64,000 nucleotides of DNA, taken from Calothrix sp. FI2-JRJ7 (GTDB taxonomy: Bacteria; Cyanobacteriota; Cyanobacteriia; Cyanobacteriales; Nostocaceae). The translations under genes and the position numbers were made by a program. Each line of letters opens with the position of its first letter. Position 1 is the first letter of the stretch. The notes beneath the pieces are model-generated. The model made no database searches. It had not been told where the DNA came from and was given only the letters and a program-made list of their open reading frames with translations. This document shows positions 1 through 64,000 of this stretch, piece by piece. The stretch lies in assembly GCA_019359675.1 (NCBI GenBank), contig JAHHGX010000071.1, positions 62,001 to 126,000 of the forward strand, read 5' to 3'.

Positions 1-851
1 GTTTTAGGAGTGTCGGTAAGTAGCGCACGCCAATATGAACCTCTTGCTACTCCTGCAACTCGTCCATATTTTCTAGAACCTGGTTGAGCAAGAGGGGTAG
101 GTGCAATATCTCTGGGTGTGGAGAGTGTACCGTTATCTAATATATTACGCCATTCTTGAATTGTCGGCGCCCGTTCGGTTCCATCAGTATTTGTACGTGC
201 GGGAGTTGCTAAAGAAGCTATATATAATGTGCCGTTACTCCGCAACCTTGCATAAGTAGAACGTCCATTTAAAGGAGGGGTTAGTCCTTGCACAGGTATT
301 GGTTCATTCTGCAACATTTGATACTCGCCTGGAGCAATGACAATTTGTTTAGGAAAATTATTTTGTCTTAGTCCTCGTAAAACATCGCTCATTACTCGAC
401 TACCTGGACCCGCATAAACATTATTTTCTGTGTTTAAAGCAAAGGATGGTAACTCTATAAATGGTGCATCTGGTTGACTTAGATAACTTGCTCCTTGAAG
501 AACACTGACTGTTACAGGTTTTTTGCCGGGATTATATAAGATGATGCCAACGTAAAGTGAGCGCAAATTATCAGGTGTCGGCGCCCCAAAAACGTGGTGG
601 GCAAAAACATCGAACCTCCCGTTGAAAGGAAAGTTTAAATGCGCTTCGGGATTTTTTTTGCCTGCACTTGGAAAAGTTGACAGCAGAATTCCTTCATTGA
701 CTACTTTCTCTGGACTATTGCTGTTAAATACAGGCACACTATCCAACCTACCAGGAAGGGGTCTTATTTCTTGGGGAATGACAATTTCTTCGGGGGGAGG
801 TGGGGTAGGAGTTGTCTGAGCAATAGGAGAGATTAGTAAGATTGGCAACAT
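1..851 (-). CDS. DUF3370-family secreted protein (3' end cut by window)
   Basis: Reading the minus strand from an ATG at 851 gives an open frame that runs off the left edge, so at least 283 residues are present and the C-terminus is missing. The N-terminus is short and hydrophobic, followed by a Pro/Thr-rich stretch, which suggests export. The downstream sequence resembles the cyanobacterial DUF3370 family by overall pattern (N-terminal IRPLPGRLD-like segment, later FNGRFDVFAHH and PGEYQML), recognised from memory. No function is established for that family. A stop codon (873-875) lies in frame just upstream and no other ATG lies between, so the ATG at 851 is the only good start; the ribosome binding site is weak. 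It follows the peptidase-like gene at 884-1447 by 32 bp on the same strand, so the two may be cotranscribed. Confidence 0.7.
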   Translation of the reverse strand, partial: MLPILLISPIAQTTPTPPPPEEIVIPQEIRPLPGRLDSVPVFNSNSPEKVVNEGILLSTFPSAGKKNPEAHLNFPFNGRFDVFAHHVFGAPTPDNLRSLYVGIILYNPGKKPVTVSVLQGASYLSQPDAPFIELPSFALNTENNVYAGPGSRVMSDVLRGLRQNNFPKQIVIAPGEYQMLQNEPIPVQGLTPPLNGRSTYARLRSNGTLYIASLATPARTNTDGTERAPTIQEWRNILDNGTLSTPRDIAPTPLAQPGSRKYGRVAGVARGSYWRALLTDTPK

Positions 852-883
852 ATACTTACATATTTTTCTTTTTCAAGACGCTG

Positions 884-1447
884 TTATCTTTCGGAAAGTG
901 CCAGTCTGTCTATAACTAATAAGAAGTCGTCTACAACAACCCGTATATTACTCTCTGTCAAAACTGGTACGTGTATAAATATGCAAGAGCTTTTTGTCGA
1001 ACTTGAGTGCAGGTAATCTAAAACCGAATAATAAAGTCCTTCGCATACAAACTTACCGCAGTCGTGACTAATCTCTGTCGCTTGGCATGGCGCCACCAAT
1101 TCTTCCAAATTGACTGAGGTATGTAGTCTACTTTCTTGATAATCTTCTGGTAACATGCTCATACTACAATTAGTGAAAGCGGGTGTACTACGAGCATTTG
1201 ATTCCACGCTTAAGCAGCTACGACTTTCTGCCATGCCACAGCAAATTATATAGTCAGGTTGGGTTTCGCGGATTTTGGCTATTACTTGGTCAACTGCTCC
1301 TTTAACATCTACAGGTAGTTTTCGTACTAGCGTTAAAGCATGGGGTAGGGCGCCAAGTCTAGTTACTTCCTCTAACAAATCATCTGAGGAATTTGATTTG
1401 TGATGTGGAAGCCAAATGTCAAAAGAAGTTAATAATAATCTTTTCAT
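884..1447 (-). CDS. Pyroglutamyl-peptidase I-like protein (peptidase C15 family)
   Basis: This 187-residue protein resembles peptidase C15, cysteine peptidases that remove N-terminal pyroglutamate. The N-terminus (RLLLTSFDIW) matches the family start, and a Glu-Cys-His triad can be placed at about Glu82 (in CGMAESR...VES), Cys135 (GKFVCEG) and His159 (FIHVPVL), with spacing close to the canonical 80/143/167. Length is slightly shorter than the usual 200-215. The surrounding motifs are divergent, so activity on pyroglutamyl substrates is inferred, not shown. The frame extends 9 bp further to a TTG; the ATG at 1447 is preferred because it begins the conserved MKRLLLTSF segment. It is divergent from hisH, with 64 bp between starts. 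Confidence 0.65.
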   Translation of the reverse strand: MKRLLLTSFDIWLPHHKSNSSDDLLEEVTRLGALPHALTLVRKLPVDVKGAVDQVIAKIRETQPDYIICCGMAESRSCLSVESNARSTPAFTNCSMSMLPEDYQESRLHTSVNLEELVAPCQATEISHDCGKFVCEGLYYSVLDYLHSSSTKSSCIFIHVPVLTESNIRVVVDDFLLVIDRLALSER

Positions 1448-1511
1448 CGTAAACAATATTAATTACAATATAAAAAGACTTCATAATAATCCTTTTATCG
1501 GGAGCAGGTCA

Positions 1512-2147
1512 ATGGCAGTGATTGCAGTCGTAGATTACGACATGGGAAATTTACACTCAGTCTGCAAAGGACTGGAAAAAGCTGGTGCAACTCCTAAAAT
1601 TACAGCGACTCCCAAAGTTATCGAACAAGCGGATGCAGTTGTTTTACCTGGTGTTGGCGCCTTCGACCCCGCCGTTCAACACATAAGAGCGCGCGGTTTA
1701 GAAGCACCCATAAGAGCAGCGATAGCTTCAGGTAAACCTTTCCTTGGCATCTGCCTGGGACTGCAAATTCTTTTTGAATCTTCTGAGGAAGGAACTCAAC
1801 CAGGACTCGGAATTGTTAAAGGAAAAGTTAAAAGGTTTCGACCTGAAGCTGACATTACAATTCCTCATATGGGTTGGAACCAACTCCAAATTGCTCAACC
1901 AAAAAGTGTAATGTGGGAACATTTACCCCCACAACCTTGGGTTTATTTTGTTCACTCATATTATGTAGACCCAACTGACCCAAGTATACGCGCGGCAACT
2001 ATTACACATGGTTCACAAACAATCACCGCTGCTATTGCGCGCGACAACCTAATGGCAGTACAGTTCCATCCAGAAAAATCCTCTAATATTGGACTACAAA
2101 TCCTGTCCAACTTTGTTTCACAAGTTTGGACACGAGTTGCCGCGTAA
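1512..2147 (+). CDS. hisH: Imidazole glycerol phosphate synthase, glutamine amidotransferase subunit
   Basis: HisH hydrolyses glutamine and passes ammonia to HisF, forming imidazole glycerol phosphate in histidine synthesis, in the cytoplasm. The 211 residues are a complete class I glutamine amidotransferase: nucleophile Cys81 in GICLGLQ, then His186 and Glu188 in QFHPEKSS. The N-terminal VDYDMGNLHS is typical of HisH. The frame is open upstream to 1416 but ATG 1512 is chosen, since GGAGCAGG lies just before it and homologues start there. hisF is not adjacent, which is usual in cyanobacteria where his genes are scattered. The next gene, rsmD, follows after 109 bp on the same strand. Confidence 0.95.
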   Translation: MAVIAVVDYDMGNLHSVCKGLEKAGATPKITATPKVIEQADAVVLPGVGAFDPAVQHIRARGLEAPIRAAIASGKPFLGICLGLQILFESSEEGTQPGLGIVKGKVKRFRPEADITIPHMGWNQLQIAQPKSVMWEHLPPQPWVYFVHSYYVDPTDPSIRAATITHGSQTITAAIARDNLMAVQFHPEKSSNIGLQILSNFVSQVWTRVAA

Positions 2148-2808: not shown

Positions 2809-2903
2809 GTTGGGTGGAGGCTTTGCGTTCACGTAGTGTCCCGCAGGGAAACCCAACCTAAAAATTAAGCATTTGTTGGGTTCCGTTCCTCCACCCAACC
2901 TAC
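2805..2903. repeat. R1 dispersed palindromic repeat (GTAGGTTGGG...CCCAACCTAC)
   Basis: Begins GTAGGTTGGGTGGAGG and ends CCACCCAACCTAC, forming an inverted pair with a second internal CCCAACCTA/TTGGGTTCC pair between. Fills the gap between rsmD and petG and supplies the rsmD stop codon. The same family recurs about eight more times in the window. Confidence 0.9.
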
Positions 2904-2908
2904 ATACA

Positions 2909-3025
2909 TTAGTTGATTCCTAACTGGTCACCACGCTTGTATTGAACATAAGCCTTGTAAAACAGACCAGCGAGAGTAACGGGAATCAAGCCAAGGACAA
3001 TACCACACAATAAAGGTTCAATCAC
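2909..3025 (-). CDS. petG: Cytochrome b6f complex subunit PetG
   Basis: PetG is a one-helix subunit needed for assembly and stability of the thylakoid cytochrome b6f complex. The 38-residue product begins [20 protein letters not shown] and ends [13 protein letters not shown], matching PetG along its full length. It starts with GTG at 3025, preceded by a good AAGGAG seven bases upstream, which decides the start. It is divergent from cytM with about 207 bp between, and its stop lies six bases from the R1 repeat pair. Confidence 0.95.
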
Positions 3026-3232
3026 TTTTAATCTCCTTGTAGAAATTATTAAACTTTTGTATCTGTCTTGTGATTCTACCAAATTTCGTAGCTTTCGGCT
3101 CTACATCTAGCTTACGGCTAAAATTTAGCGAGAAAAATATCCGCTTGTGCTTGCAGACACTGCTAAGAACTTTTAAGCTATGTGTATGAAATGAAAAAAA
3201 CTTTGTAAACCTCTCATTTAACAGTAAACCTT

Positions 3233-3607
3233 TTGGATAACCACATTACCACACCCTCAATTCTCGTACAGCGCGCGATGTTAATCATGCTGTCGGTTGT
3301 ACTTGCTTTTATTTTGGGCATGTTTGCCGTGCGTGTGGTGCAAGCTTCCGACCCATACGTTAAAACAGTGCTATCTCTCAACGGTGACTCTGTTCAAGGA
3401 CATGCTATCTTTCAAATCAACTGTGCTGGATGTCACGGTTTGGAAGCTGCCGGTAGAGTTGGGCCAAGCTTGCAAGGTGTTTCCAAACATAAATCTCGCT
3501 ACGGACTAATTCACCAAGTTATAAGTGGTGACACTCCCCCCATGCCCAAATTTCAACCCAACACCCAAGAAATGGCTGACTTATTAAGTTACTTAGAAAC
3601 TTTATAA
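3233..3607 (+). CDS. cytM: Cytochrome cM (membrane-anchored c-type cytochrome)
   Basis: CytM is a small, low-abundance cyanobacterial c-type cytochrome implicated in adjusting photosynthesis and respiration. The 124 residues have an uncleaved N-terminal membrane anchor (about 15-37), a CAGCH haem site (Cys64, Cys67, His68) and the probable axial Met104 in TPPMPKF, followed by the family end EMADLLSYLETL. The start is TTG at 3233, giving MDNHITTPS; CytM proteins typically begin MDN, so this non-ATG start is preferred over the internal ATG at residue 16. No strong ribosome binding site is visible. Its last 19 bp overlap the convergent gene at 3589-3909. Confidence 0.9.
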   Translation: MDNHITTPSILVQRAMLIMLSVVLAFILGMFAVRVVQASDPYVKTVLSLNGDSVQGHAIFQINCAGCHGLEAAGRVGPSLQGVSKHKSRYGLIHQVISGDTPPMPKFQPNTQEMADLLSYLETL

Positions 3608-3909
3608 ACCAACTCAAAAGGTTTACCTGGTTTTTGCGGTTGCCAACCAGCAGAAATTGCCCTCTCTATCGCGCACTTAACATCAGCAGGATAAACAGGA
3701 ACAATCACCTGCGTCCAAAAACTGCTCGGATGTCCTTGTGGCATTACGACCACCAAATTGGCGCCCCTGTTTTCTGCATGTTCAACACCCACCGTCAAAT
3801 GTACCCCAGGATAATCACCTTGAGCATGAGTTGGTTTCTTACGAACTCGCCACCGATAACCCTCACCATCCACAACTATTAATCTAGAACCCTTCTTTGG
3901 AATTGCCAT
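3589..3909 (-). CDS. Conserved hypothetical protein, 106 aa
   Basis: I do not recognise a named family. The product is basic at the N-terminus (MAIPKKGSRLIVVDGEGYRWRVRKKP), has a central region rich in beta-type residues (VHLTVGVEH, LVVVMPQGHP) and ends in a segment that could be a short helix (CAIERAISAGWQP) followed by KPFELVYKVSK. No membrane segment or signal peptide is visible. It overlaps the convergent cytM end by 19 bp, and it contains a GGCGCC site as most genes here do. Codon use looks ordinary, so it is probably a real gene. Confidence 0.6.
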   Translation of the reverse strand: MAIPKKGSRLIVVDGEGYRWRVRKKPTHAQGDYPGVHLTVGVEHAENRGANLVVVMPQGHPSSFWTQVIVPVYPADVKCAIERAISAGWQPQKPGKPFELVYKVSK

Positions 3910-3945
3910 ATCACCTTGTAGTATATTGTCCTATATTACTACATT

Positions 3946-3975
3946 GTAGGTTGGGTGGAGGAACGGAACCCAACA
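3946..3975. repeat. R1 dispersed palindromic repeat
   Basis: GTAGGTTGGGTGGAGG followed by GGAACCCAACA. Short hairpin form of the R1 family. Confidence 0.85.
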
Positions 3976-3991
3976 TTTTAATTTCGTTTTT

Positions 3992-4020
3992 TACCACAGA
4001 GGCACAGAGTACACAAAGAA
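3992..4020. repeat. R8 element (TACCACAGAGRCRC...)
   Basis: TACCACAGAGGCACAGAG followed by TACACAAAGAA. Related copies stand at 28561-28590 and 53349-53380, all in intergenic gaps. Confidence 0.7.
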
Positions 4021-4100
4021 AGATTTATTAAGATATTATATGGCGCCCATTAATCTCAATAAATGACTTTGAACAATTTCCACAGCCTCAAATAGAAAAA

Positions 4101-4169
4101 CGTAGGGTGCGATCAGGCTATGAAAAACTTTCAACGTAGTTACAATACTTATAGCCTTCACGCACCGAC
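4101..4169. repeat. R2 dispersed repeat, degenerate copy
   Basis: Begins CGTAGGGTGCG and ends TTCACGCACCGAC, with an inner CTATGAAAA segment; a diverged member of the GTAGGGTGCGTGACGC family. Confidence 0.65.
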
Positions 4170-4185
4170 TCCTATCTAGGCGCCT

Positions 4186-4371
4186 ATCAAATACAGCAAC
4201 CATTTTTGTTTAGATGGAGCTACTATTCAACCGTTAACAGTTATTGGAGAAGTAACTGCTCGTATATTTGAGTTTAATAGTAATAAAAGAATTGCTGAGA
4301 GACAAAGTTTGATAAAAATTGGCGCATATCCACCACCTCCAGCATTAAAACGTATAAATAAAGAAAATTAA
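4186..4371 (+). pseudogene. C-terminal gene remnant, unknown family
   Basis: A frame without a plausible start codon encodes roughly sixty residues containing IQPLTVIGEVTARIFEFN, then NKRIAERQ and YPPPPALKRINKEN, ending at TAA 4369-4371. It reads like the C-terminus of a protein (coherent, hydrophilic, proline-rich tail) whose 5' part has been lost. Family unknown. It is followed 30 bp later by a terminator-like hairpin on the same strand. Confidence 0.4.
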
Positions 4372-4400
4372 TAATTGGTGGTTTGAATTGTTGTAGTAAA

Positions 4401-4429
4401 ATTCCCAATTTATTTTTAAAGTTGGGAAT
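4401..4429 (+). terminator. Terminator-like hairpin
   Basis: Perfect 8-bp stem ATTCCCAA / TTGGGAAT with a 13-base loop, followed after a few bases by CTTTTT. It would end transcription of the remnant upstream. Confidence 0.45.
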
Positions 4430-4451
4430 CTTGACTTTTTAATTTCTGAGT

Positions 4452-4517
4452 AAGGTGCGTGACGCTTTTAGATTATTCGCTTCGTTGTGAGGCTGTTGGT
4501 AGCGTCACGCACCCTAC
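4452..4517. repeat. R2 dispersed palindromic repeat (GGTGCGTGACGC...GCGTCACGCACC)
   Basis: AAGGTGCGTGACGC and TAGCGTCACGCACCCTAC form the two arms, with a TTCGCTTCGTTG-type centre. The repeat encodes the last 14 residues and the stop of the adjacent epimerase. Confidence 0.9.
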
Positions 4518-5468
4518 GTATAATTCTTTTACCCATTGCCATTCTTGGGTTAAGCCTTCGCGTAATGATATTTGTGGGTGCCATCCTAGAAGTTGTTTGG
4601 CTTTGGAAATGTCGGCGCCTGTATGTCGTGCGTCACCCATTGCTCTTTCTATATGTTGCCGTTTAATAGGTTGCCCTACTATTTCTTCCATCATATTAAG
4701 TACATCTGATAGTACTGCACGACTACCACCACCAATGTTAATGATATGTCCAATAGCATCTGGCGCCGTTGCTGCTGCTAAGTTGGCTGCTACTGCATCA
4801 CTTATATATGTAAAGTCGCGTGTTTGTTCTCCATCTCCATATACTGGAATAGCTTCGTTTTCAATAACAGCTTTGAAGAATTTATGAAATGCCATGTCTG
4901 GACGCTGACGTGGCCCGTAAACTGTAAAGTAACGTAATGCTACAAATGGTACACCAAAGTTTTTATGGTAAAGTCCACATAATCTTTCTGCTGCTAGTTT
5001 GGTGATGCCATAAGGTGATACTGGCGCCGGACAAATACCTTCGTGTGTTGGTAATGTTTCCGCATCTCCGTAAATGCTCGATGTTGATGCGAACACCAAA
5101 CGTTTAAGATGCTTTGCGTCTTTGGCTGCTTCTAATAAGATTTGTGTGGCGCTAATGTTACGTTCTGTATACGAACGAAACCCTTTACCCCACGATGCGC
5201 GTACACCTGCTTGTGCTGCTTGGTGATAAACCACGTCAACGTCTGATAAAAGCGTTTGCCAGTCTACAAACTGAACATCTTCTTCGATTAACTCAAAATT
5301 TGGGTTGTTGTGTAAATGGGCGATATTTTTACGTTTGAGCGCTGGGTCATAGTAACTGTTGAACTCGTCTATACCAATTACTTGTTGCCCTTGTTTTAAT
5401 AAAGCTTCGACCAAGTGCGAGCCTATAAAACCTGCGGCGCCTGTTACTATACTTTTATTCATGTTCAT
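4473..5468 (-). CDS. NAD-dependent sugar-nucleotide epimerase (SDR family, GalE/UDP-glucuronate epimerase-like)
   Basis: An extended short-chain dehydrogenase that would epimerise a nucleotide sugar, supplying polysaccharide or cell-envelope synthesis. The 331 residues show the NAD motif GAAGFIGSH (10-18), a STSS serine cluster at 128-131, and the catalytic YGITK pair Tyr153/Lys157. The sequence is closest in style to UDP-glucuronate 4-epimerases (FNSYYDPALK, TVYGPRQRPDMAFHKF). The exact substrate cannot be read from sequence. The last 14 residues (VGCVTLPTASQRSE) are translated from an R2 repeat and lie outside the normal fold, which ends near WVKELY. The gene is divergent from purD with 274 bp between. 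Confidence 0.85.
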   Translation of the reverse strand: MNMNKSIVTGAAGFIGSHLVEALLKQGQQVIGIDEFNSYYDPALKRKNIAHLHNNPNFELIEEDVQFVDWQTLLSDVDVVYHQAAQAGVRASWGKGFRSYTERNISATQILLEAAKDAKHLKRLVFASTSSIYGDAETLPTHEGICPAPVSPYGITKLAAERLCGLYHKNFGVPFVALRYFTVYGPRQRPDMAFHKFFKAVIENEAIPVYGDGEQTRDFTYISDAVAANLAAATAPDAIGHIINIGGGSRAVLSDVLNMMEEIVGQPIKRQHIERAMGDARHTGADISKAKQLLGWHPQISLREGLTQEWQWVKELYVGCVTLPTASQRSE

Positions 5469-5742
5469 TGTTTTAATATGATTAACTACAATATTTAAAG
5501 ACCAATATTTGAAAAAGCGTAATCTTTATACCAATATAACCGCTACTAGTTTACGATGTTTTTCTTCTTTTCCTAGGTTGTTTGATTTTGTTTCAAAAGT
5601 CCTCAGTATAAACTTTGAATTTTAGGATTATTTAAGAATTTTTTATAAATGTGACAGCCTAGAGAAACTACATATCAATTGGTGTAATATGAAAAATTGT
5701 CACAAAGTCTGCTTAATGGTGGCGCCATATTGAGGGAAAAGG

Positions 5743-7062
5743 GTGAAAGTTTTAGTTGTTGGTAACGGTGGGCGCGAACATGCCCTGGCTTGGAAACTTC
5801 TACAATCGAAGCAAATTGAACGTGTTTTCTGTGCCCCAGGAAATGGTGGAACTGCCAGTATGGAACGTTGCGAAAACGTTCCTGTAAAGGTTGATGATTT
5901 TGAAGGTATTAACGAAATAGCTCACTCTGAGGGTGTTTCATTAATAGTCGTTGGTCCCGAAGTTCCTTTAGCTAAGGGTATTACAGACTTTTTACAAGCT
6001 AAAGGTTTAAAAGTATTTGGGCCAAGTCGTGCTGGTGCCCAAATTGAGGCAAGTAAAGCATGGGCAAAAGCATTGATGCAAGAAGCACATGTACCTACAG
6101 CGGCTTCTGCGGTATTTACTGATGTGAAAGCAGCGAAATCGTATGTCAAATCTAAAGGGGCGCCTATTGTTGTTAAAGCTGATGGGTTAGCAGCAGGTAA
6201 GGGTGTAATAGTCGCTCAAACTATTGAAGAAGCTCATGCTGGACTTGATGCTATTTTTGGCGGGCAGTTTGGCAGCGCTGGCAATTTTGCTGTTATTGAA
6301 GAATTTTTAACTGGACAAGAAGTTTCTGTTTTAGCACTCACTGATGGTGAGACTATTTGTCCTTTATTACCCGCACAAGACCATAAACGGATTGGTGAAG
6401 GTGATACTGGTGAAAATACGGGTGGTATGGGCGCCTATGCACCAGCACCTATTGCTACCAATACTTTAATGGCTAGAGTCCAAACTGAAGTACTAGAGCG
6501 TACAATTGCAGCTTTAAAAGCTAAAGGTATTGACTATCGAGGTGTCTTATATGCAGGGCTAATGGTTTCTGATGATGGAAATTTTAAAGTCTTAGAATTT
6601 AACTGTCGTTTTGGCGACCCCGAAACACAAGTCATTTTACCTTTACTTGAAACACCTTTAGAAGAACTTCTTTTAGCCTGCGTAGAAAGGCGCCTAGCAC
6701 AAATGCTTCCCATAGTATGGAAGTCTGGTGCATGTGCTACTGTTGTCGCTGCTAGTGGCGGTTATCCTGGTGATTACACCAAAGGTAAAATTATCACAGG
6801 ATTCAATGATGCTGTTTCTACTGGCGCCACTGTATTTCACGCCGGAACAACGTTACAATCATCAACACAAGCTTCAGAAGTATGTACTGATGGTGGTAGA
6901 GTGTTGAATGTCACAGGTGTGGGAGAAGACTTTAAACAAGCACTCAACGAAGCATATGCAGGAATCGCCAAAATTAACTTCGACGGCATGTACTATCGAA
7001 GAGACATTGGAAGTAGGGTGTGTGACGCCATCAACAATCTGACAACGAAGCCAGTCACCTAG
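5743..7062 (+). CDS. purD: Phosphoribosylamine-glycine ligase
   Basis: PurD joins phosphoribosylamine and glycine using ATP in purine synthesis. The 439-residue protein is an ATP-grasp enzyme: N-terminal VLVVGNGGREHALAWKL, nucleotide-binding KADGLAAGKGV near 144, and the metal-binding EFNCRFGDPETQ near 287. It starts at GTG 5743 with GAGGGAAAAGG just upstream; this gives the family start MKVLVVGNGG. The enzyme proper ends at about YYRRDIG; the following 16 residues (SRVCDAINNLTTKPVT) come from an R2 repeat, whose TAG ends the gene. It stands alone upstream of nblS. Confidence 0.95.
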   Translation: MKVLVVGNGGREHALAWKLLQSKQIERVFCAPGNGGTASMERCENVPVKVDDFEGINEIAHSEGVSLIVVGPEVPLAKGITDFLQAKGLKVFGPSRAGAQIEASKAWAKALMQEAHVPTAASAVFTDVKAAKSYVKSKGAPIVVKADGLAAGKGVIVAQTIEEAHAGLDAIFGGQFGSAGNFAVIEEFLTGQEVSVLALTDGETICPLLPAQDHKRIGEGDTGENTGGMGAYAPAPIATNTLMARVQTEVLERTIAALKAKGIDYRGVLYAGLMVSDDGNFKVLEFNCRFGDPETQVILPLLETPLEELLLACVERRLAQMLPIVWKSGACATVVAASGGYPGDYTKGKIITGFNDAVSTGATVFHAGTTLQSSTQASEVCTDGGRVLNVTGVGEDFKQALNEAYAGIAKINFDGMYYRRDIGSRVCDAINNLTTKPVT

Positions 7063-7078
7063 TAGCGTCACGCACCGA
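7013..7078. repeat. R2 dispersed palindromic repeat at the purD end
   Basis: Arms GTAGGGTGTGTGACGCC and TAGCGTCACGCACCGAC around an AACGAAGCC centre. It codes for the C-terminal tail of PurD and its stop. Confidence 0.9.
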
Positions 7079-7144
7079 CATGAGGTTTAATAATCGCGTC
7101 ACGCACCAACACATTTAAGAGCATGGTCTTAACTCCACTTCTCG

Positions 7145-7209
7145 TTGATGCGTGACGCTACTAAATTATTGGCTTCGTTGTCGATTTTTCGTAGCGTCAC
7201 GCACCGTAC
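7145..7209. repeat. R2 dispersed palindromic repeat upstream of nblS
   Basis: Arms GATGCGTGACGCTACT and GTAGCGTCACGCACCGTAC around GGCTTCGTTG. An isolated right arm (CGCGTCACGCACC) stands at 7094-7106. The array lies between purD and nblS and leaves only about 80 bp for the nblS promoter. Confidence 0.85.
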
Positions 7210-7291
7210 ATTCGCAATTTATGTAAATAACTGTTAATTTTTTAGTTGTTGCAGTTTGTTTATAAAAAACTACTAACAACTTAAATTTAAA

Positions 7292-9226
7292 ATGCTCGCT
7301 GTTTTTACTTATATCCGAGAAGCGATTGCCTCCTGGTGGTCGCAGTTTACACTCCAAACTAAGCTCTTGGCTGCCGCCACCCTGGTGGTATCTTTAGTTA
7401 TGAGCGGTTTGACGTTTTGGGCAGTCAATACTATCCAACAAGATGCGCGCTTGAATGATACTCGTTTTGGTCGCGACTTAGGATTATTGCTTGCTGCTAA
7501 CGTGGCGCCTTTAATAGCCGATAATAACTTAACTGAGGTTGCCCAACTATCTCAAAGGTTTTATAGCAGTACATCTAGCATTCGATACATACTCTATGCA
7601 GACGATACTGGAAAAATCTTTTTTGGCATTCCCTTTTGGGAACCAGAAGTTGAGAACTCACTTACAATTCAACGACGAATACAACTACCTGACGACTACG
7701 CAACTGATGCTGAGAAGCCAATGGTACGTCAGCATCAATCTCCTGATGGAGAAGTTACTGATGTCTTTGTACCATTAACAATCAATGGTAAGTACCTTGG
7801 TGTAATGGCAGTTGGTATAAACCCCAACCAGACAGCAGTTATTTCCACTAATTTTACTCGTGATGTCACTATTGCCGTATTTATTACGATTTGGGTAATG
7901 GTAATTTTGGCTGGTGTTGTTAATGCTTTAACTATTACTAAACCTATTAAAGAACTTTTAGTAGGTGTCAAGCAAATTGCTGCTGGTAATTTTCAACAGC
8001 GAATCGATTTGCCTCTCGGTGGAGAACTTGGAGAATTAATCTTCAGTTTTAACGATATGGCAGAACGTTTGGAACGTTACGAAGAACAAAATATCGAGGA
8101 ACTCACTGCTGAAAAAGCCAAACTTGAAACGCTCGTCTCTACTATTGCTGACGGCGCCGTGTTGATTGACAATAATATGCAGGTAATTCTTGCCAACCCA
8201 AATGCACGTCGTATTTTTGGTTGGGACGATATTGAGGTTGAAGGTAGTAACGTATTGCATCAGCTACCAACTGGAGTACAAATGGAAATTACACGTCCTT
8301 TGTACGAAATGGCAGCAGGAGAACGCGAAAGTGCTGAGTTTCGTATTCCACTCGGTCAACCCACAAAACGTACCATCCGTATTTTATTGACAACAGTTCT
8401 TAATCTTCAACGCGAAAGTATCAAAGGTATTGCCATAACCGTTCAAGATATTACACGGGAAGTTGAGCTAAACGAAGCCAAAAGTCAATTTATTAGTAAC
8501 GTCTCCCACGAATTACGAACACCATTATTTAATATCAAAACATACATTGAAACACTGCATGACTACGGTGAAGATTTAGAAGTCGAACAGCGAAAAGAGT
8601 TCTTATCAACAGTAAATCACGAAACAGACCGTTTAACTCGATTAGTAAACGATGTATTAGATTTATCAAAATTAGAATCAGGACGCATTTACAATTTAGA
8701 TGGAGTAGATTTAAGTCAAGCAATCGAACAAACGCTGCGTACTTATCAACTTAACGCTAAAGACAAAGGAATCGAAATATTTCAAGAAGTTGAACCTAAC
8801 ATACCTTTAGTCGTCGGTAACTACGATTTATTACTACAAGTCTTTGGTAACTTAATAGGTAACGCACTCAAATTTTCCACTCCCGGTGGTCAAATTGCCT
8901 TCCGTGCGTATCAACTCGATGCAAAAAAAGTGCGAATAGAAATATCCGACACAGGAATTGGAATTGCACCAGAAGACCAAGAAGCGATATTCGACCGTTT
9001 CTTTCGCGTCGAAAACCGAGTACACACCCTTGAAGGTACAGGTTTAGGACTATCAATAGTCCGTAACATCATCGACAAACACCACAGTCGAGTCAACCTA
9101 GTCAGCGAAGTTGGCACAGGTACCACCTTTTGGTTCGACTTATCAATTGTAGAACAACAGGCGCTGCATGTTGAGCAGTTAGGAGTTAAGAGTTATGAGT
9201 TAGGAGTTGGGAATGTAGAGACGTGA
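7292..9226 (+). CDS. nblS: Sensor histidine kinase NblS (Hik33/DspA family)
   Basis: NblS/Hik33 is the conserved cyanobacterial membrane sensor kinase that controls responses to high light, cold and nutrient stress, including phycobilisome breakdown. The 644 residues have, in order, a transmembrane helix (about 26-48), a periplasmic sensor region, a second helix (about 190-212), HAMP (213-265), PAS (about 275-390), HisKA with VSHELRTP near 403-410, and a HATPase with GTGLGLSIV near 583. The N-terminus (WWSQFTLQTKLLAAATLVVSLVMSGLTFW-like) is very characteristic of the family. The last residues after LSIVEQQALHVEQ (LGVKSYELGVGNVET) are encoded by heptamer repeats plus an R4 palindrome that provides the TGA. 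This kinase is usually unlinked to its regulator, as here. Confidence 0.9.
   Translation: MLAVFTYIREAIASWWSQFTLQTKLLAAATLVVSLVMSGLTFWAVNTIQQDARLNDTRFGRDLGLLLAANVAPLIADNNLTEVAQLSQRFYSSTSSIRYILYADDTGKIFFGIPFWEPEVENSLTIQRRIQLPDDYATDAEKPMVRQHQSPDGEVTDVFVPLTINGKYLGVMAVGINPNQTAVISTNFTRDVTIAVFITIWVMVILAGVVNALTITKPIKELLVGVKQIAAGNFQQRIDLPLGGELGELIFSFNDMAERLERYEEQNIEELTAEKAKLETLVSTIADGAVLIDNNMQVILANPNARRIFGWDDIEVEGSNVLHQLPTGVQMEITRPLYEMAAGERESAEFRIPLGQPTKRTIRILLTTVLNLQRESIKGIAITVQDITREVELNEAKSQFISNVSHELRTPLFNIKTYIETLHDYGEDLEVEQRKEFLSTVNHETDRLTRLVNDVLDLSKLESGRIYNLDGVDLSQAIEQTLRTYQLNAKDKGIEIFQEVEPNIPLVVGNYDLLLQVFGNLIGNALKFSTPGGQIAFRAYQLDAKKVRIEISDTGIGIAPEDQEAIFDRFFRVENRVHTLEGTGLGLSIVRNIIDKHHSRVNLVSEVGTGTTFWFDLSIVEQQALHVEQLGVKSYELGVGNVET
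9177..9214. repeat. R3 heptameric tandem repeat (GAGTTAN)
   Basis: About five units such as GAGTTAA, GAGTTAT, GAGTTAG and GAGTTGG. It is translated as the C-terminal tail of NblS. Confidence 0.85.
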
Positions 9227-9240
9227 CATGTCACGTCTCC
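9215..9240. repeat. R4 palindrome (GTAGAGACGTGA...TCACGTCTCC)
   Basis: GTAGAGACGTGACATG pairs with TCACGTCTCC. Contains the nblS stop TGA at 9224-9226. It could also act as a hairpin at the transcript end. Confidence 0.85.
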
Positions 9241-9263
9241 TCATGCGTTTCCTCATGTTTGAA

Positions 9264-9632
9264 TCAAGCAAAAGCCGCTATCATTAAACAAACAACAAAC
9301 AAAGCCACAAACAGCAACAGCGTTTGATTCTGTCGTACCCAACTCTGTAAACTCTCATTAGAACTGGGTTTACGATACTGCTGTTGCTTCTGCGCTTGAT
9401 ACTCCTCAAAATTTTGATATAAAGTACACTCTTTCGCTGTAGGACGTTGCGGATAATTACAGCTATCATCCACATGGTAAGCACAGGTATCACACAAGTA
9501 CTCACCCTTGCCAGCACGGTGCAACGGAATACCAGGATGTCCAAACGCTTTTAACTCAGTGCGACAGAAAGGGCAAGTTACAGCTTGTGAGTCAACTTGC
9601 TGATTACAACGGGGACAAAATATACTAGCCAC
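9264..9632 (-). CDS. Zinc-ribbon, single-pass membrane protein
   Basis: The 122-residue product starts at GTG 9632 (VASIFCPRCNQ...). It has an N-terminal zinc ribbon (CPRCNQQVDSQAVTCPFC), a second cysteine set (CDTCAYHVDDSC then C in KECTLY), a Gln-rich linker (EYQAQKQQQYRKP) and one C-terminal membrane helix (TLLLFVALFVVCLMIAAFA), so it is a tail-anchored metal-binding protein. The frame is open far upstream (to 9878), but that extension is antisense to the retropepsin gene and unlike any protein, so GTG 9632 before the first CxxC is chosen. Similar small zinc-ribbon proteins are common in cyanobacteria; function unknown. Divergent from the retropepsin-like gene, with 70 bp between starts. 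Confidence 0.7.
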   Translation of the reverse strand: MASIFCPRCNQQVDSQAVTCPFCRTELKAFGHPGIPLHRAGKGEYLCDTCAYHVDDSCNYPQRPTAKECTLYQNFEEYQAQKQQQYRKPSSNESLQSWVRQNQTLLLFVALFVVCLMIAAFA

Positions 9633-9702
9633 CTGAATAAATATAATTAATATAAGGTTTACTCGATTGTACTCACTCTCAGTTTTAAAAGGTGGAAATA
9701 AG

Positions 9703-10155
9703 ATGTTAGATTTTAATCGAGTAGAGCATAAGATAAATAAGGAGATAGGAGAAATCAGAGTTAAGGTTAAGCTCACTAACGCTATTGACGAAGGTTTAAT
9801 TAGTCGGGGATTTCTTAATCCAACTGACTTACATGTATACGAAACATCAGCACTAATCGATACTAGTGCAGTACGCACTGTAATTCCAATGCATGTAGCA
9901 CAAAAATTGGGTTTAGAAATTCGTAGTGAGCAAGTAGCAAAGTATGCAGATGGTAGACCAGAAACTGTTGAAATAGCTGAACCAGTACTTATTGAAATTC
10001 AAGGAAGAGAAACTTCTGAATCTCTATTAGTTGTTGGAGATGAAATACTAATTGGTCAAATTGGCTTGGAAACTTTAGATTTTGTTGTTGATTTTGAAAA
10101 TCATCGTTTGATTCCAAATCCTAAACATCCTGATGGTTCTGTTTTTCGCATATGA
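9703..10155 (+). CDS. Retropepsin-like (clan AA) aspartic protease homologue, variant active site
   Basis: This 150-residue protein has the single-domain retropepsin pattern: the active-site region ETSALIDTSAVRTVIP with Asp53, a flap-like middle (KYADGRPETVEIAEPVLIEI), then a second hydrophobic-Gly motif (ILIGQIGLETLDFVVD) and the C-terminal strand. Such proteins work as dimers. The usual Asp-Thr/Ser-Gly is here Asp-Thr-Ser, so the third residue is changed, and activity is doubtful. Start ATG 9703 is chosen over a TTG at 9667 because of AGGTGG upstream and because the intervening residues are not conserved-looking. A second homologue with intact Asp-Thr-Gly is at 34218-34583. Confidence 0.7.
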   Translation: MLDFNRVEHKINKEIGEIRVKVKLTNAIDEGLISRGFLNPTDLHVYETSALIDTSAVRTVIPMHVAQKLGLEIRSEQVAKYADGRPETVEIAEPVLIEIQGRETSESLLVVGDEILIGQIGLETLDFVVDFENHRLIPNPKHPDGSVFRI

Positions 10156-10176
10156 TGGTAGAACAGGTGCCCATTC

Positions 10177-11775
10177 CTATACTACAACGCGCGCTAATTG
10201 GACAACTGCCCGCACTAATTCATCAAAAGCAACAGGTTTTACTATGTGATATTTATAACCAATATCCAGAATTTTCTCATGGTCTATATCCGTACCATAA
10301 GCTGTAAGCGCAATCGCTGGAATTGATATATTTTGATACTGTGGCAACGCGCGAATTTCACGCATCAGTTCATAACCATCCATTGTTGGCATTCCAATAT
10401 CGCTTATTATTACATCTGGCCGATTCGATATAATTGCTTCCAGTGCATCAGTACCAGAATTAAAAGCCGTTACCCTAGCGCCATATTGTTCTAATACAAA
10501 TGTTATCAGTTCTAAATTATCAGCTTCATCATCAACTACTAACACATTTATTTCAGCTAACGAAGTTAAATCTGGGTCTAATTCTTGTTTTACTTGTGGC
10601 GCCATAACTGCTGCAAGAGGAAAACAACAAGTGAAAGTTGCCCCAAGTCCTTCACCTAAACTTTCTGCCATAATTGTGCCACCGTGCAATTCGACTAAAT
10701 GACGCGAAATTGCTAAACCTAACCCCAACCCACCAAATGTTCTAGTAGTACTGCTATCAGCTTGACGGAAAGACTCAAATATGTACGGTAAAAACTCCCG
10801 CGTAATACCTTTTCCAGTATCACTAACCTTTAGTTGAACCTGCGTATCAATTTGTTCAAGGCTGATTGTAACTTCTCCACCTGTAGGTGTAAACTTAACG
10901 GCATTGGTAAGTAAATTAATCACGATTTGCTGTAAACGGTTGGCATCACCCAATACTTTACCGACGTCATAATTAATTTCGATAATTAGCTGAATCGATT
11001 TTGCTTCTACTGCTAACCTAACTGTTTCTAATGCTGCTTGAATCACATAACCCAAATCTACAGTTTCTAATTTTAATTCCAGCTTACCTCGTAGTATTCG
11101 TGATACATCAAGTAAATCATCAATTAGTTGCACCTGTAATTTGGCATTGCGTTCAATTGTTTCAATTGCTAAACTTTTACTCTTTTCATCTAAAGTCCGA
11201 GTTTTTAGCAATTTTGACCATCCCAATATTGGATTTAGCGGTGTACGCAACTCGTGCGATAAAATCGCTAAAAACTCATCTTTGACTCGGTTTGCTGCTT
11301 CTGCTGATTCTTGCGCTAATTTTCGTTCTACTGCTTCCGCTAACGCACGGTCACGCATTGTTCTATATTCTTGAACACGATATGTTAAATCTGTTACGTC
11401 TTGTATTGACATCAACGCATAATAACTATCTTCATCGACACTAGGTAGCGATGTTACAGTTGTATGTTGAATGCGGTTTTTTCCTTGGCTACTCGGTGCC
11501 GGAATTATATAATTATGTAGTTGTGAAGAAAAGATTGCTGGTGGTCCACCTTTAAATATATCTTCAAACCGACTTGCATACTGTGGTTGACTTAAATGCG
11601 GAAATCTCTGAGTTAGCGAAGTATCTAAAATCAACTTACGCGGAATTTTTGTCCATTCTTCTAAACAGTTATTCCAATAAATTACTGTGTAGTCAGATTT
11701 GAAAATACACAAACCCAACGGTATAAGGTCAAAATGACTAAATTTCTCCTGCGATTGAGCGATTATTTCTAGCAT
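10177..11775 (-). CDS. Hybrid histidine kinase with C-terminal receiver
   Basis: Soluble 532-residue kinase. Residues about 15-115 look like a PAS domain (IPLGLCIFKSDYTVIYWNN), followed by a short coiled coil (about 135-168), HisKA with [15 protein letters not shown] near 173-187, HATPase (about 275-392; GGLGLGLAISR) and a receiver domain (about 413-530) with VVDDE and phospho-acceptor Asp in IISDIGMP. No membrane segments. It is the third gene of a minus-strand cheY-cheC-kinase set, 21 bp after cheC, so it probably feeds phosphate or signal into the same circuit. Confidence 0.85.
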   Translation of the reverse strand: MLEIIAQSQEKFSHFDLIPLGLCIFKSDYTVIYWNNCLEEWTKIPRKLILDTSLTQRFPHLSQPQYASRFEDIFKGGPPAIFSSQLHNYIIPAPSSQGKNRIQHTTVTSLPSVDEDSYYALMSIQDVTDLTYRVQEYRTMRDRALAEAVERKLAQESAEAANRVKDEFLAILSHELRTPLNPILGWSKLLKTRTLDEKSKSLAIETIERNAKLQVQLIDDLLDVSRILRGKLELKLETVDLGYVIQAALETVRLAVEAKSIQLIIEINYDVGKVLGDANRLQQIVINLLTNAVKFTPTGGEVTISLEQIDTQVQLKVSDTGKGITREFLPYIFESFRQADSSTTRTFGGLGLGLAISRHLVELHGGTIMAESLGEGLGATFTCCFPLAAVMAPQVKQELDPDLTSLAEINVLVVDDEADNLELITFVLEQYGARVTAFNSGTDALEAIISNRPDVIISDIGMPTMDGYELMREIRALPQYQNISIPAIALTAYGTDIDHEKILDIGYKYHIVKPVAFDELVRAVVQLARVVV

Positions 11776-11796
11776 TATTTAGGTATTATATCTGTG

Positions 11797-12788: not shown

Positions 12789-13054
12789 CGTTCAAATTTT
12801 GCCTTGAAATGATACATTAACTATTTTACACATGCATAACAGTAAATTATAGTTTATCATCTATTCAATAGTTTGCTAATTGTCAAGTAGCTTTGATACA
12901 CTTTTGCAATAAAAATCTCTAGATACTAATTAAAAAAATAAACTTCTACCTAAAGGCATAATTTATATCTACTTTCCGATATAATTTGAAAGCATACTAG
13001 TTTCACTACTTTCATCGTAGAATATTTTATTACCTAGACTACATATCAAATTGC

Positions 13055-15166: not shown

Positions 15167-15167
15167 T

Positions 15168-15614: not shown

Positions 15615-15622
15615 ACAAAATT

Positions 15623-19447: not shown

Positions 19448-19453
19448 ACCCAA

Positions 19454-50701: not shown

Positions 50702-52180
50702 TCAAAACTGGCGCCCCCAATCTTCGCGCCAACGTTCTACAACAACTTTTGTTTGTGTAAAAAATTCAACTGCATGATTACCTTGTCCGTGTAAATCACC
50801 AAAAAAACTTTCTTTCCAACCGCTAAATGGAAAGAAAGCCATAGGCGCCGCAACACCAATATTGATACCAATATTACCAGCCTCTGCTTCGTAGCGAAAT
50901 TTGCGTGCGGCGCCTCCACTAGTAGTAAATAAACAAGCCATATTTCCGTACTGTCCGCTATTCACGAGCGATATCGCCTCATCTATTGTATTAAGATGAA
51001 TTAAGCTCAATACTGGCCCAAAGATTTCAGTCTTTGCAATCTCCGAATTTGGGTCAACGTCTTGTAAAATCGTCGGACGCACAAAATAGCCGTTTTCATA
51101 ACCGCTAACTTGTGGTTGGCGCCCATCTACTAGTAATTTAGCACCCTCTGAGGCACCTTTCTGAATTAAAGCTTCAATACGTTGTTGACTTTGAACAGAA
51201 ATAACAGGCCCCATTTCCACACCCTTTTCCAAACCATTACCAACAACTCGCTTCATCGCTGTTTCAGTAATAGCTTCGGTAAATGTTTGCTTTGCAGAAC
51301 CTACAGTTACAGCTAAAGAAGCAGCTAAACATCTTTGTCCTGCACAACCAAAAGCACTATCAGCAGCAATGCGAGTAGTCATGGTCATATCAGCATCAGG
51401 CAAAATAATAATTGGATTTTTTGCCCCACCCTGACACTGTACCCGTTTTCCATTTGCGGCGCCACGACTATATATATATTTCGCCACGGGTGTAGAACCA
51501 ACAAAACTAATTGCCCGGATGCTAGGATTATCAAGAATAGCGTCTACAGCTTCTTTGGCGCCATTAACTAAATTAATCACCCCTTTGGGTAAACCTGTTT
51601 TTTCAAGTAACTGAAATATTTTTTGCATTGTCAACGGTACTTTTTCCGAAGGTTTGACGATGTAGGTATTACCGCAAGCGATAGCATAAGGTAAAAACCA
51701 AAACGGAATCATTCCTGGAAAATTAAACGGACAAATAACCGCGCACACTCCTAACGGTTGCCGTATCATCATTTCATCAATACCGCGTGCAATATCTTCG
51801 CTATTAACACCCTGCATCATTATTGGAATACCGCAAGCAACTTCCACATTCTCAACCGCACGCTGCATTTCTCCTTTTGCTTCTGCCAGCGTTTTACCGC
51901 ACTCGGTTGTTATAGTAGAAGCCAAATCATCAAAATTTTCTAATAATAAAGTTCTTAATTTAAATAAATACTGCACCCTCTCAGTAGGCGGTGTCCGGCG
52001 CCATGTTTTAAATGATTCTGATGCTGCTTGAACTGCTTCATTAACTTCTGATGTAGTAGATAAAGGCACTTTCGCTATAACTTCACTCGTCGCTGGGTTA
52101 AAAACTTCTAAGTGGTTAGTAGCTTTAGATGCCGCCCATTCCCCATTAATGTAATTGGGTAATATATTATTTATTGTCAT
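50702..52180 (-). CDS. mmsA: Methylmalonate-semialdehyde dehydrogenase (CoA-acylating)
   Basis: A 492-residue aldehyde dehydrogenase of the MmsA group, which converts (methyl)malonate semialdehyde to propionyl- or acetyl-CoA in valine/pyrimidine breakdown. Catalytic Cys284 is in [13 protein letters not shown]; the start [22 protein letters not shown] and the [19 protein letters not shown] segment are typical of the family. ATG 52180 is chosen over 52195 as it overlaps the tilS stop by four bases (ATGA). Coupling to a tRNA-modifying gene is unexpected and probably neutral. Confidence 0.88.
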
Positions 52181-62574: not shown

Positions 62575-62584
62575 AACATTCCTC

Positions 62585-62651
62585 GTAAGGTGCGTGACGC
62601 TACTAGTTCACTAGTTTTACTTCACGATTGTTATGGCGTTACGCACCCTAC
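62585..62651. repeat. R2 dispersed palindromic repeat at the sdhB end
   Basis: Arms GTAAGGTGCGTGACGCTACT and GTTACGCACCCTAC. The right arm supplies the sdhB stop (AGG TAG GGT on the minus strand). Confidence 0.9.
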
Positions 62652-63655
62652 CTTTCTTCTTTCTTCACTGCCTCAATTAAAGAACGAACTTGTTGTGTTC
62701 CTTCGGATGGCTCAAATTTGAGGGGAAATTTTCCACGCTTGAGCATTCGTAGTCCTAAAGGAGCAATACTCAATAAACCATTAAGGTCTTGAAATTGATT
62801 CCCAACTACTTGTAACCCAAATTTACGCTCATCAATCCAACCACCATTTTTGACTAAATCAATTAAAACTTTACGGTGACGAATTGAGCGACCATCGCTT
62901 TTTTGTTTCCGCTCTAGAATTTCTTGTTTAATTTTAGTGATTTGATCTAAAGGAGCAACATCCATTGGACAAACGGAGTTGCAATTATAACAACGAGTAC
63001 ACCCCCAAACACCTTTACTATCTTCGTTATAATTTTCTAACCGATTTTCTGTGTTGTTATCGCGTGAGTCTGCTACCATTCGATATGCTTTTGCCAGTGC
63101 ATGAGGCCCTACAAAATTTTGATTCACCTCGCGCGCATTACATTCCGAGTAACAGGCGCCACACATAATACAATTACCAGTTTGGTCAAGAAGTGCGCGT
63201 TCCGATGGTGTTTGTAAAAATTCACGTTCTGGTACTTGCCGTCCAGCAGTACTAACGTATGGCGCCACAGCTTCAAGATTGTCCCAAAAAGGGTTCATAT
63301 CAACTATTAAATCTTTAACAACAGGCATATTACCTAGAGGCGCCACTGTTAAAACTGGTTTACCCTCGTAGGTATTTTTTGTAGCTGTATTTTCATATGA
63401 TGATTTTAAGAACTCAATCTCGCTGCCAACATTTTCTTTACAAGCCAAAGCCGAACGTCCGTTGATTCGCATTGCACAACTACCGCAAATAGTGTTACGG
63501 CAATTCTTACGGAATGCTAGAGTTCCATCTTGCTCCCACTTAATTTTATTAAGGCAGTCGAGGATTGTATTTCCAGGCTCGGTTTCCACCAAATAATCCT
63601 GCACGGAAGGCTCGGAGTTAGGTTTTTGTCGAATAATTTTAAAGATAACTTCCAT
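62648..63655 (-). CDS. sdhB: Succinate dehydrogenase/fumarate reductase iron-sulfur subunit
   Basis: SdhB carries electrons from the flavoprotein to quinone. The protein has an N-terminal [2Fe-2S] domain with CRNTICGSCAMRING and a distal Cys (ALAC), and C-terminal [4Fe-4S]/[3Fe-4S] sites in CIMCGACYSEC and CTRCYNCNSVCPMD. About 335 residues, longer than the usual 240-260 because of a C-terminal extension (from about 250). ATG 63655 (MEVIFKIIR) is preferred over 63661. Stop is supplied by an R2 repeat. sdhA is not in this window. Confidence 0.88.
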   Translation of the reverse strand: MEVIFKIIRQKPNSEPSVQDYLVETEPGNTILDCLNKIKWEQDGTLAFRKNCRNTICGSCAMRINGRSALACKENVGSEIEFLKSSYENTATKNTYEGKPVLTVAPLGNMPVVKDLIVDMNPFWDNLEAVAPYVSTAGRQVPEREFLQTPSERALLDQTGNCIMCGACYSECNAREVNQNFVGPHALAKAYRMVADSRDNNTENRLENYNEDSKGVWGCTRCYNCNSVCPMDVAPLDQITKIKQEILERKQKSDGRSIRHRKVLIDLVKNGGWIDERKFGLQVVGNQFQDLNGLLSIAPLGLRMLKRGKFPLKFEPSEGTQQVRSLIEAVKKEER

Positions 63656-64000
63656 ATACACAAATCCTATATATCGTATTTAACTCGGTTAATATCTATT
63701 ACGCACCGCAGTGGCTATTATTCTCACTCAACATCATCAATCCCTGCTCTTTAGTACTGAAGAACCGCAAATGTCTTGATTACAGCACACTTAAGATGAA
63801 AGTTAGGTGCTGAAGAATCTTGCCCAACAAGCGCGCGGACTACAACACTCTGCTCGTAATAAAAGTTCACTTCTATGCCTCCAATTGGTTTGAACATCTT
63901 CCAAGTATAACCATTAAATCTAAATCCATATGCTCAGAATCTGATTCAATTACATAACCGTAATATCCAAGACACTACAAGTTTATAAGAGTTGCTTGGG
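63656..64000. other. Terminal gap with a possible short frame
   Basis: About 345 bp to the window end. On the minus strand an ATG at 63897 starts a 48-codon frame (MFKPIGGIEVNFYYEQSVVV...) ending at TAA 63751-63753; upstream residues in the same frame (AYGFRFNGYTWK) suggest a truncated gene, but I cannot identify it. No RNA gene or repeat seen. Confidence 0.35.

Follow-up and report, generated by a model that had tools for sequence, protein, structure and literature searches.

Most cyanobacterial genomes carry HIP1 (GCGATCGC), a highly iterated, GC-rich palindrome that lies mostly in genes. According to Elhai 2015 (PMC4390886), HIP1 was described in 1995 and HIPs reach densities of roughly 1000–2000 per Mb. 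The same paper links HIP1 to solitary methylases, reports GGCGCC in place of HIP1 in Calothrix PCC 7103, and presents alternate HIPs as sporadic rather than clade-wide. A second point of comparison is the HindV/BsaHI/HgiDI restriction-modification family (GRCGYC). M.BsaHI is described as methylating GRCGYC at the central C (PMC2413257), and GRCGYC methylation as detected in H. influenzae Rd (PMC8565308).

We analyzed a 64,000-nucleotide stretch of Calothrix sp. FI2-JRJ7 (the window) and related genomes. With the PCC 7103 case, our material shares the hexamer, the lack of HIP1, GATC depletion, and GRCGYC-type methylases. Whereas that report draws on a single genome plus partial sequence from a second strain, we cover seven genomes, find the methylase to be solitary and apparently vertically kept, and measure an inner-C footprint and synonymous protection of the site.

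Counts of GGCGCC and HIP1

The window (1..64000; palindromic sites are given without strand throughout) contains 108 GGCGCC sites at a mean spacing of 590 bp, matching the number that a sequence-only reading had counted by eye. Window G+C is 39.6%, and Markov counts give 5.9 expected sites and a z-score of ~40, the highest among the 64 palindromic hexamers; CGCGCG is second (z 5.5). The reading had expected four to five sites; dinucleotide shuffles give a mean of 5.55 and a maximum of 13, with 0/100 reaching 108. It had also seen no GCGATCGC, and the count is indeed 0, which by itself is not significant because only 0.47 are expected. Across the 8.66-Mb genome, GGCGCC occurs 14,889 times (one per 582 bp, or 1,719 per Mb) against 8 copies of the reversed control CCGCGG, and GCGATCGC occurs 31 times against 51 for its reversed control, thus at or below chance. 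Neither outcome named in advance as contrary to a replaced palindrome, a GGCGCC count near expectation genome-wide or abundant HIP1 elsewhere in the genome, was observed. The alternate-palindrome interpretation is thereby borne out, though already published for PCC 7103 (PMC4390886), and the strong enrichment, the near absence of HIP1, and the density correspond to how alternate HIPs are characterized there. The word resembles HIP1 in being a highly iterated, GC-rich, mostly genic palindrome but is a different word, not GCGATCGC, and lacks GATC.

Placement of nearly all sites inside genes holds as a count, with 100/108 in ORFs 100 aa or longer, but the excess is mild, with ORFs covering 82% of the window; in a sibling 280-kb stretch, 410/477 sites lie in ORFs that cover 80% (p 0.0009). 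Flanks vary around a hexamer core, as had been proposed: the commonest octamer, AGGCGCCA, covers just 14/108 window sites, and the flank bias consists of rare G at −1 (8/108) and rare C at +6 (14/108). Codon use, base composition, or a DNA-uptake word could be invoked for such a pattern, and 220/410 coding sites of the sibling stretch do fall in the Gly-Ala frame. All three frames are used, however, relatives matching in G+C lack the enrichment, and neither shuffle nor Markov controls produce it. A composition or codon artefact was rejected, since no background model tried gave ~100 sites per 64 kb, and we find this family of explanations hardly credible.

Distribution of the Swap

To place and name relatives, we used the histidine-kinase gene, presumably nblS-like, that lies with a purD-like gene (GARS domains) at 5743..9226 (+); both genes contain GGCGCC. 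All seven genomes covered for the genus, including PCC 7103 (G061), have 7,475–20,380 GGCGCC and 31–163 HIP1. The swap occurs in 0/210 other family genomes, where the highest GGCGCC count, 1,053, is accompanied by 1,270 for its reversed control. In contrast to the seven, the three genomes of the nearest genus by kinase protein (87–89% identity) keep HIP1, at 5,938–6,966 copies, and have almost no GGCGCC (4, 4, and 5). Present in 7/7 genus genomes and 0/210 others, the palindrome swap is a clade trait of one Calothrix-like genus, which adds to the published case. It runs against the view of alternate HIPs as sporadic in Elhai 2015. The claim that no clade retains an alternate HIP has served as an argument that HIP1 is under selection, and this clade-wide persistence weakens it.

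For PCC 7103, Elhai proposes that GATC restriction expelled HIP1 first and that GGCGCC then took its place. From 54 to 140 kb per genome, GATC stands at 0.07–0.21 of expected in 6/7 genus genomes and at 0.37 in the seventh, which is the kind of depletion the scenario calls for. That seventh genome, G064, is the deepest genus branch in the kinase tree (99/98 support for the other six), yet it is already swapped (7,475 GGCGCC, 147 HIP1) with CGATCG at 0.95 of expected. Extreme GATC loss therefore looks later than the swap, an argument limited by the methylase tree, which differs in grouping G064 with G063, and by sister-genus values that rest on 21 and 19 kb. We consider prior expulsion of HIP1 by GATC restriction quite improbable.

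Methylase and Nuclease Genes

A methyltransferase matching the palindrome had been anticipated. Genes for HindV/BsaHI-type (GRCGYC) m5C methylases, a family that fits the site, are present in 7/7 genus genomes, where their activity is predicted; the family specificity, GRCGYC, is wider than GGCGCC. The methylase has a C5 methylase domain (PF00145, 6.9e-66) with PCQ and ENV motifs. Its recognition residues, xR[RK]-[G/A]-T[I/V]-NRP, match those of a plasmid gene annotated HindV: the TL region reads QRR-G in P0001 and QRK-A in P0002, with NRP at C-TL in the manner of the plasmid gene. Both proteins thus show the TL motif, the conserved upstream R, and the following Gly/Ala described by Neely and Roberts 2008.

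The genus relatives of P0001 occur in 7/7 genomes and form a single clade (100/99), and judging from these sequences the methylase was apparently inherited vertically. In relatives, the neighbor of the P0001-type gene is an RE_HindVP nuclease (PF09519; 3/3 scanned). This nuclease is present in 43/217 family genomes and was found in 0/7 of the genus, which sets the genus apart from HindV, BsaHI, and HgiDI systems, as does a target word that is hugely enriched rather than avoided. Methylase matches occur in 56 outgroup genomes, 39 of which carry RE_HindVP as well; the 17 that have a match and no nuclease (some being fragments) include none that is GGCGCC-rich (maximum 43 per Mb).

A different m5C methylase, P0004, is found in 202/210 other family genomes and in 0/7 of the genus by a search separate from the PF00145 clustering, which drew on the loci of 28 and 30 matches among those listed. 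Its target is probably CGATCG inside HIP1 (DmtC type). Eight outgroup genomes without P0004 (E up to 1e-60) keep 2,878–7,016 HIP1, and G079, which has a methylase of the HindV type and lacks both RE_HindVP and a P0004 match, carries 6,883 HIP1 and 144 GGCGCC. These gene changes are insufficient for the swap, because G079 has all of them without having switched. We also considered avoidance of GGCGCC by methylase carriers as proof of specificity and rejected it: the correlation is strong unstratified, but within genera outside the focal one, methylase presence goes only weakly with low GGCGCC (p 0.049), and nuclease presence has no detectable association with it (p 0.31).

Conservation and Mutation of the Sites

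At fourfold-degenerate positions, C>T at the outer cytosines of GGCGCC was seen in 4/366 cases against 503/8,155 matched controls (OR 0.17, p 4e-6), with matched-control positions counted under both C5 and C6 (singly, p 3e-4 and 0.0025). Because synonymous C>T is here 5.6 times rarer than at controls, GGCGCC is kept at the DNA level. The inner C behaves differently in the PCC 7103 lineage, where C3>T reaches 15/74 (20%) against 63/1,087 (p 5e-5), as expected for deamination of 5-methylcytosine. The other three lineages pooled show no such excess (synonymous C3>T 5/166 vs 6.1%), and per-C rates do not differ significantly from CpG elsewhere (p 0.08 and 0.35; 0.09 in the opposite direction). GGTGCC is also in excess in G062, at 2.7 of expected.

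Over longer distances, 143/189 sites (0.76) are conserved against NIES-4105, compared with 0.44 for local same-phase hexamers. At 94–95% identity, conservation is slightly above local controls (0.80–0.84 vs 0.73), and between the window and PCC 7103 it is below them (0.72 vs 0.77). The kinase-gene site at 8153..8158 is present in 5/5 named genus loci, and its position reads GGTGCT in 38/73 outgroup loci. Position 6034..6039 is GGTGCC in the window genome, PCC 7103, PCC 7716, and G064 and GGCGCC in NIES-4105, Dulcicalothrix desertica PCC 7102, and G062. At 63261..63266, the window genome has GGCGCC, PCC 7102 and PCC 7716 GGTGCC, and PCC 7103 GGCACC. At 51152..51157, GGCACC in the window genome and GGTGCC in PCC 7103, against GGCGCC in PCC 7716, suggest parallel losses, as the C>T appears on either strand. 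Across the 10 coding sites with outgroup data, no outgroup hexamer listed (at most four per site) lay inside HIP1, and direct conversion of HIP1 sites was rejected; AGCGAT could overlap HIP1, but the 56 loci checked there had no overlapping HIP1.

Taken with the gene content, we think it rather probable that GGCGCC is the alternate HIP of this genus, tracking a solitary GRCGYC-family m5C methylase with a likely inner-C target, and kept as DNA. The genus would have inherited the HindV/BsaHI-family methylase vertically without its restriction partner, while missing the widespread methylase that probably marks CGATCG. The solitary enzyme most likely marks the inner cytosine, GG(5mC)GCC; the word would be held at the DNA level, with outer-cytosine changes rare, and deamination of 5-methylcytosine would let the inner C leak to T in the lineage of PCC 7103. 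The data show how many sites there are, which clade has them, which genes are present or absent alongside, that the sites are protected from synonymous change, and that PCC 7103 has a C3>T excess; from these we infer methylation itself, its inner-C target, and maintenance of the site in its methylated form and not as a bare word.

What maintains the site may be selection, with the methylated form serving, for example, to mark a strand for repair, to start recombination, or to pack the chromosome; the word would then be arbitrary if methylase-marked about once per gene. The 5.6-fold depletion of site-breaking synonymous changes, the long-range conservation well above local controls, and a density within the HIP range of Elhai 2015 speak for this reading, which we hold possible but less likely than not. 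Against it, no reader protein was identified, and spacing was not more even than random in 4/4 stretches tested; one fixed bound word under selection, moreover, would not predict the word changing along with the methylase set.

Somewhat unlikely, in our view, is functionless methyl-guided repair bias, in which, where strands differ at a site, the methyl-marked strand would be copied, through Elhai's GmeC-directed mismatch-repair ratchet or biased gene conversion between chromosome copies. The word fits the resident methylase family, and the inner C that the ratchet requires as target (PMC4390886) is the base methylated by M.BsaHI (PMC2413257). At 3/10 coding sites, moreover, the local tripeptide is absent from all 40–56 outgroup sequences, pointing to a drive powerful enough to alter protein sequences. 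Recent gains are nevertheless few relative to losses: the four lineages have 15 candidates vs 61 when criteria are relaxed and 7 vs 32 when they are strict, and the window alone has 0 vs 28 (hand-made ORF calls and local blastn, with overlapping or <200-bp HSPs dropped). The ratchet in its published form also predicts equal protection of neighbors, whereas the depletion we measured is against matched positions. Very-short-patch repair as the site restorer was rejected, canonical Vsr (PF03852) being found in 0/7 genus and 1/217 family genomes. An unlikely but specific form of such bias is that the solitary methylase writes its own target: in multi-copy cyanobacterial chromosomes, copy-to-copy repair would favor the 5-methylcytosine strand, and the word would spread and be retained functionless. 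HIP1 and GGCGCC might then be two outcomes of one process, with the switch following methylase replacement. A genus-wide swap beside a HIP1-keeping sister genus, together with gene presence and absence and a mutation footprint, makes the idea that a methylase drives the word testable.

Other GGCGCC-Rich Genomes

A class-wide sample of 388 genomes was screened for other GGCGCC-rich genomes, and three were followed up. Two candidates for a further swap, G561 and G448, proved to be HIP1 genomes, and G435 is a separate lead. Some high-G+C genomes of the sample are also GGCGCC-rich, with reversed controls just as high.

Results and Discussion

The sequence-only reading proposed that GGCGCC takes the place of HIP1 (GCGATCGC), the common cyanobacterial highly iterated palindrome (HIP). 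GGCGCC occurs 108 times in the window, against 5.55 expected from dinucleotide shuffles, and is its most over-represented palindromic hexamer by a wide margin. In the whole genome (8,663,394 bases, 91 contigs), 14,889 copies compare with 8 of the reversed pattern. HIP1 is missing from the window, as claimed, a zero count that is not significant by itself; nor is it abundant elsewhere, with 31 copies genome-wide versus 51 of the reversed pattern. The alternate HIP is thus confirmed, but one genus member was already known to have it: Elhai (2015, PMC4390886) reported that GGCGCC replaces HIP1 in Calothrix PCC 7103 as well as in D253 fragments. The same study found GATC reduced to 16% of expectation, a pair of GRCGYC methylases, and a CGATCG methylase that is damaged. 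Among the matches listed in a literature search, with most subscription journals outside its reach, there were no other papers on GGCGCC as a HIP. Within the window, GATC (15 vs about 148 expected) and GGCC (16 vs 118) are strongly depleted, TTCGAA is absent (about 21 expected), and several further palindromes are missing; the shortages of TTCGAA, GGCC, and other palindromes suggest further restriction-modification pressure.

Comparison with relatives, which that reading had called for, placed the replacement at the level of the genus. Across a family sample of 217 genomes from 56 genera, all seven genomes of the genus carry 7,475 to 20,380 GGCGCC and 31 to 163 HIP1, while none of the other 210 is GGCGCC-rich (maximum 1,053, in a genome with 1,270 of the reversed control). 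The three genomes of the sister genus hold 4, 4, and 5 GGCGCC and 5,938–6,966 HIP1. Coordinates of an nblS-like histidine-kinase gene identified genus members as PCC 7103 (G061), Dulcicalothrix desertica PCC 7102 (G060), Calothrix PCC 7716 (G065), Calothrix NIES-4105 (G063), and the metagenome-assembled Calothrix C42_A2020_038 (G064), and sister-genus members as C. elsteri CCALA 953 (G027) and the metagenome-assembled Calothrix CSU_2_0 (G029). In a 23-row tree built from this one kinase, the genus forms a clade (100/99) with G064 as its deepest branch, adjoined by the sister genus and Calothrix NIES-3974 (99/100). Elhai (2015, PMC4390886) argues for selection on HIP1 from alternate HIPs being sporadic and not in clades, a description that genus-wide GGCGCC contradicts. 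New here are the persistence of GGCGCC across a clade, its maintenance at the DNA level, a solitary methylase that seems to have been inherited vertically, and an inner-cytosine mutation footprint in one lineage. As a side observation, a 10.7-Mb genome of the same family (G194) has only 535 HIP1 and 326 GGCGCC despite a P0004 methylase (below), and may have another HIP. The window also encodes, at 41389-47205, a hybrid kinase of 1,938 aa with about nine HAMP and three response-regulator domains.

The window aligns collinearly over 51–58 kb with G060, G061, G065, and G063, over 34 kb with G064, and over its first 12 kb with the genus member G062. Its GGCGCC sites are conserved at 75/97 in NIES-4105 (86% identity), where local same-phase hexamers are conserved at 0.42, and at 30/70 in G064 (local hexamers 0.28); three close relatives give 0.72–0.82 versus 0.75–0.77. 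With PCC 7716 as reference, 143/189 sites are conserved in NIES-4105 (local hexamers 0.44). At fourfold-degenerate third positions, the outer cytosines of GGCGCC changed to T in 4/366 cases versus 503/8,155 controls in hexamers equally fixed in other genomes (odds ratio 0.17, p = 4e-6, with control positions entering both the C5 and the C6 count); tested singly, C5 gave p = 3e-4 and C6 p = 0.0025. These substitutions leave the protein unchanged, so constraint on its sequence does not account for the depletion. Either selection or methyl-guided repair may maintain the site; Elhai (2015, PMC4390886) proposed repair directed by methylated GC.

The inner cytosine (C3) behaves differently in one lineage. 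Among 61 lineage-specific GGCGCC losses in four genomes, 38 were C3>T or its complement, whereas the other two cytosines had 4 and 6 transitions, and PCC 7103 accounts for 21 of the 38. Synonymous C3>T is in excess in PCC 7103 (15/74 vs 63/1,087 in controls, p = 5e-5), with no excess in the other three lineages together (5/166 vs 6.1%). Observed/expected GGTGCC is 2.6 in PCC 7103, 2.7 in G062, and 1.1–1.5 in the other five. Nine sites show both GGTGCC and GGCACC among genomes, a pattern that recurrent loss of GGCGCC would produce. Vsr repair was found in none of the seven genomes, and the footprint is consistent with an inner C that is methylated to 5-methylcytosine where such repair is missing.

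Recent gains of GGCGCC are few: 280 kb yielded 15 candidate gains and 61 losses under relaxed criteria, 7 and 32 under strict criteria, and the window 0 and 28 (strict). Ten coding sites near the kinase gene could be compared with outgroups, whose hexamers at these positions varied and were often at least two steps away; at 3 of the 10, the local tripeptide was missing from all 40–56 outgroup sequences.

A candidate for the accompanying methyltransferase that had been anticipated is present. Searches with PF00145 gave 9 matches in this genome and 9–17 per sibling, and one HindV/BsaHI-type m5C methylase group (P0001), with a target that we infer to be of the GRCGYC type, occurs in 7/7 genomes. 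Elhai (2015, PMC4390886) had stated that the methylated position was known for no enzyme of this type; M.BsaHI methylates the central C of GRCGYC (Neely and Roberts 2008, PMC2413257), and RIMS-seq has revealed GRCGYC methylation in H. influenzae Rd (PMC8565308). In six genomes, P0001 lies between members of two families, RuBisCO-like on one side and SLH on the other (families defined by clustering, with Pfam run on members from this genome and G060); the SLH member tested in G060 also has a GHL10 domain. In G062, the best full-length copy lies elsewhere, and pieces at contig ends share 97% and 93% identity with P0001. The methylase tree groups all seven copies in a single clade (100/99) and, unlike the kinase tree, joins G064 with G063 inside it. 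At least four genomes of the genus also carry a second group (P0002 type) that is more diverged. Separately, at least five genus genomes (loci L019, L022, L023, L025, L030) encode an m5C methylase of 658 aa whose C-terminal extension is long.

In relatives, the restriction nuclease RE_HindVP (PF09519) adjoins a P0001-type methylase in 3/3 cases scanned. The nuclease occurs in 43/217 family genomes and 0/7 of the genus; HindVP itself is described as inactive as a nuclease (Neely and Roberts 2008, PMC2413257). Outside the genus, median GGCGCC per Mb is 0.71 with methylase and nuclease (n = 39), 6.1 with methylase only (n = 17), and 5.1 with neither (n = 150), an association for which within-genus tests are weak.

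A separate m5C methylase group, P0004, which we infer to be the CGATCG enzyme, was present in 4/4 HIP1 genomes examined and absent among genus proteins, both by partial protein extraction. At E up to 1e-60, it matched 202 of 217 family genomes and 0/7 of the genus. Eight genomes outside the genus without P0004 still carry 2,878–7,016 HIP1. One genome (G079) combines a HindV-type methylase with neither RE_HindVP nor a P0004 match and remains HIP1-rich (6,883 HIP1, 144 GGCGCC), so this combination is insufficient for the replacement.

With HIP words masked, GATC observed/expected is 0.37 in G064 and 0.07–0.21 in the other six genomes, compared with 0.70 and 0.90 over just 21 and 19 kb of two genomes from the sister genus; CGATCG is at 0.95 in G064 and 0–0.11 in the others. 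Because the replacement is already complete in G064, the extreme loss of GATC would have followed it, provided that the kinase tree is correct.

In a class sample of 388 genomes, counts against controls and follow-up of three genomes left G435, from another family of the same order, as the sole similar-looking case outside the genus. It repeats a GGCGCC-core octamer, CGGCGCCG (loci L206, L302, L303, and L308-L310). Titles among the matches listed in a literature search for CGGCGCCG and cyanobacteria were all unrelated, and no methylase matched within the 95 kb searched. In 20 kb of G281, neither HIP1 nor CGGCGCCG was among the top octamers; 20 kb of G461, from the same genus as G435, contains HIP1 16 times. 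The octamer occurs 107 times in 95 kb of G435 (4.4 expected), and GGCGCC 9,489 times across its 3.8 Mb versus 2,450 for the reversed control, which looks like an independent GGCGCC-core HIP.
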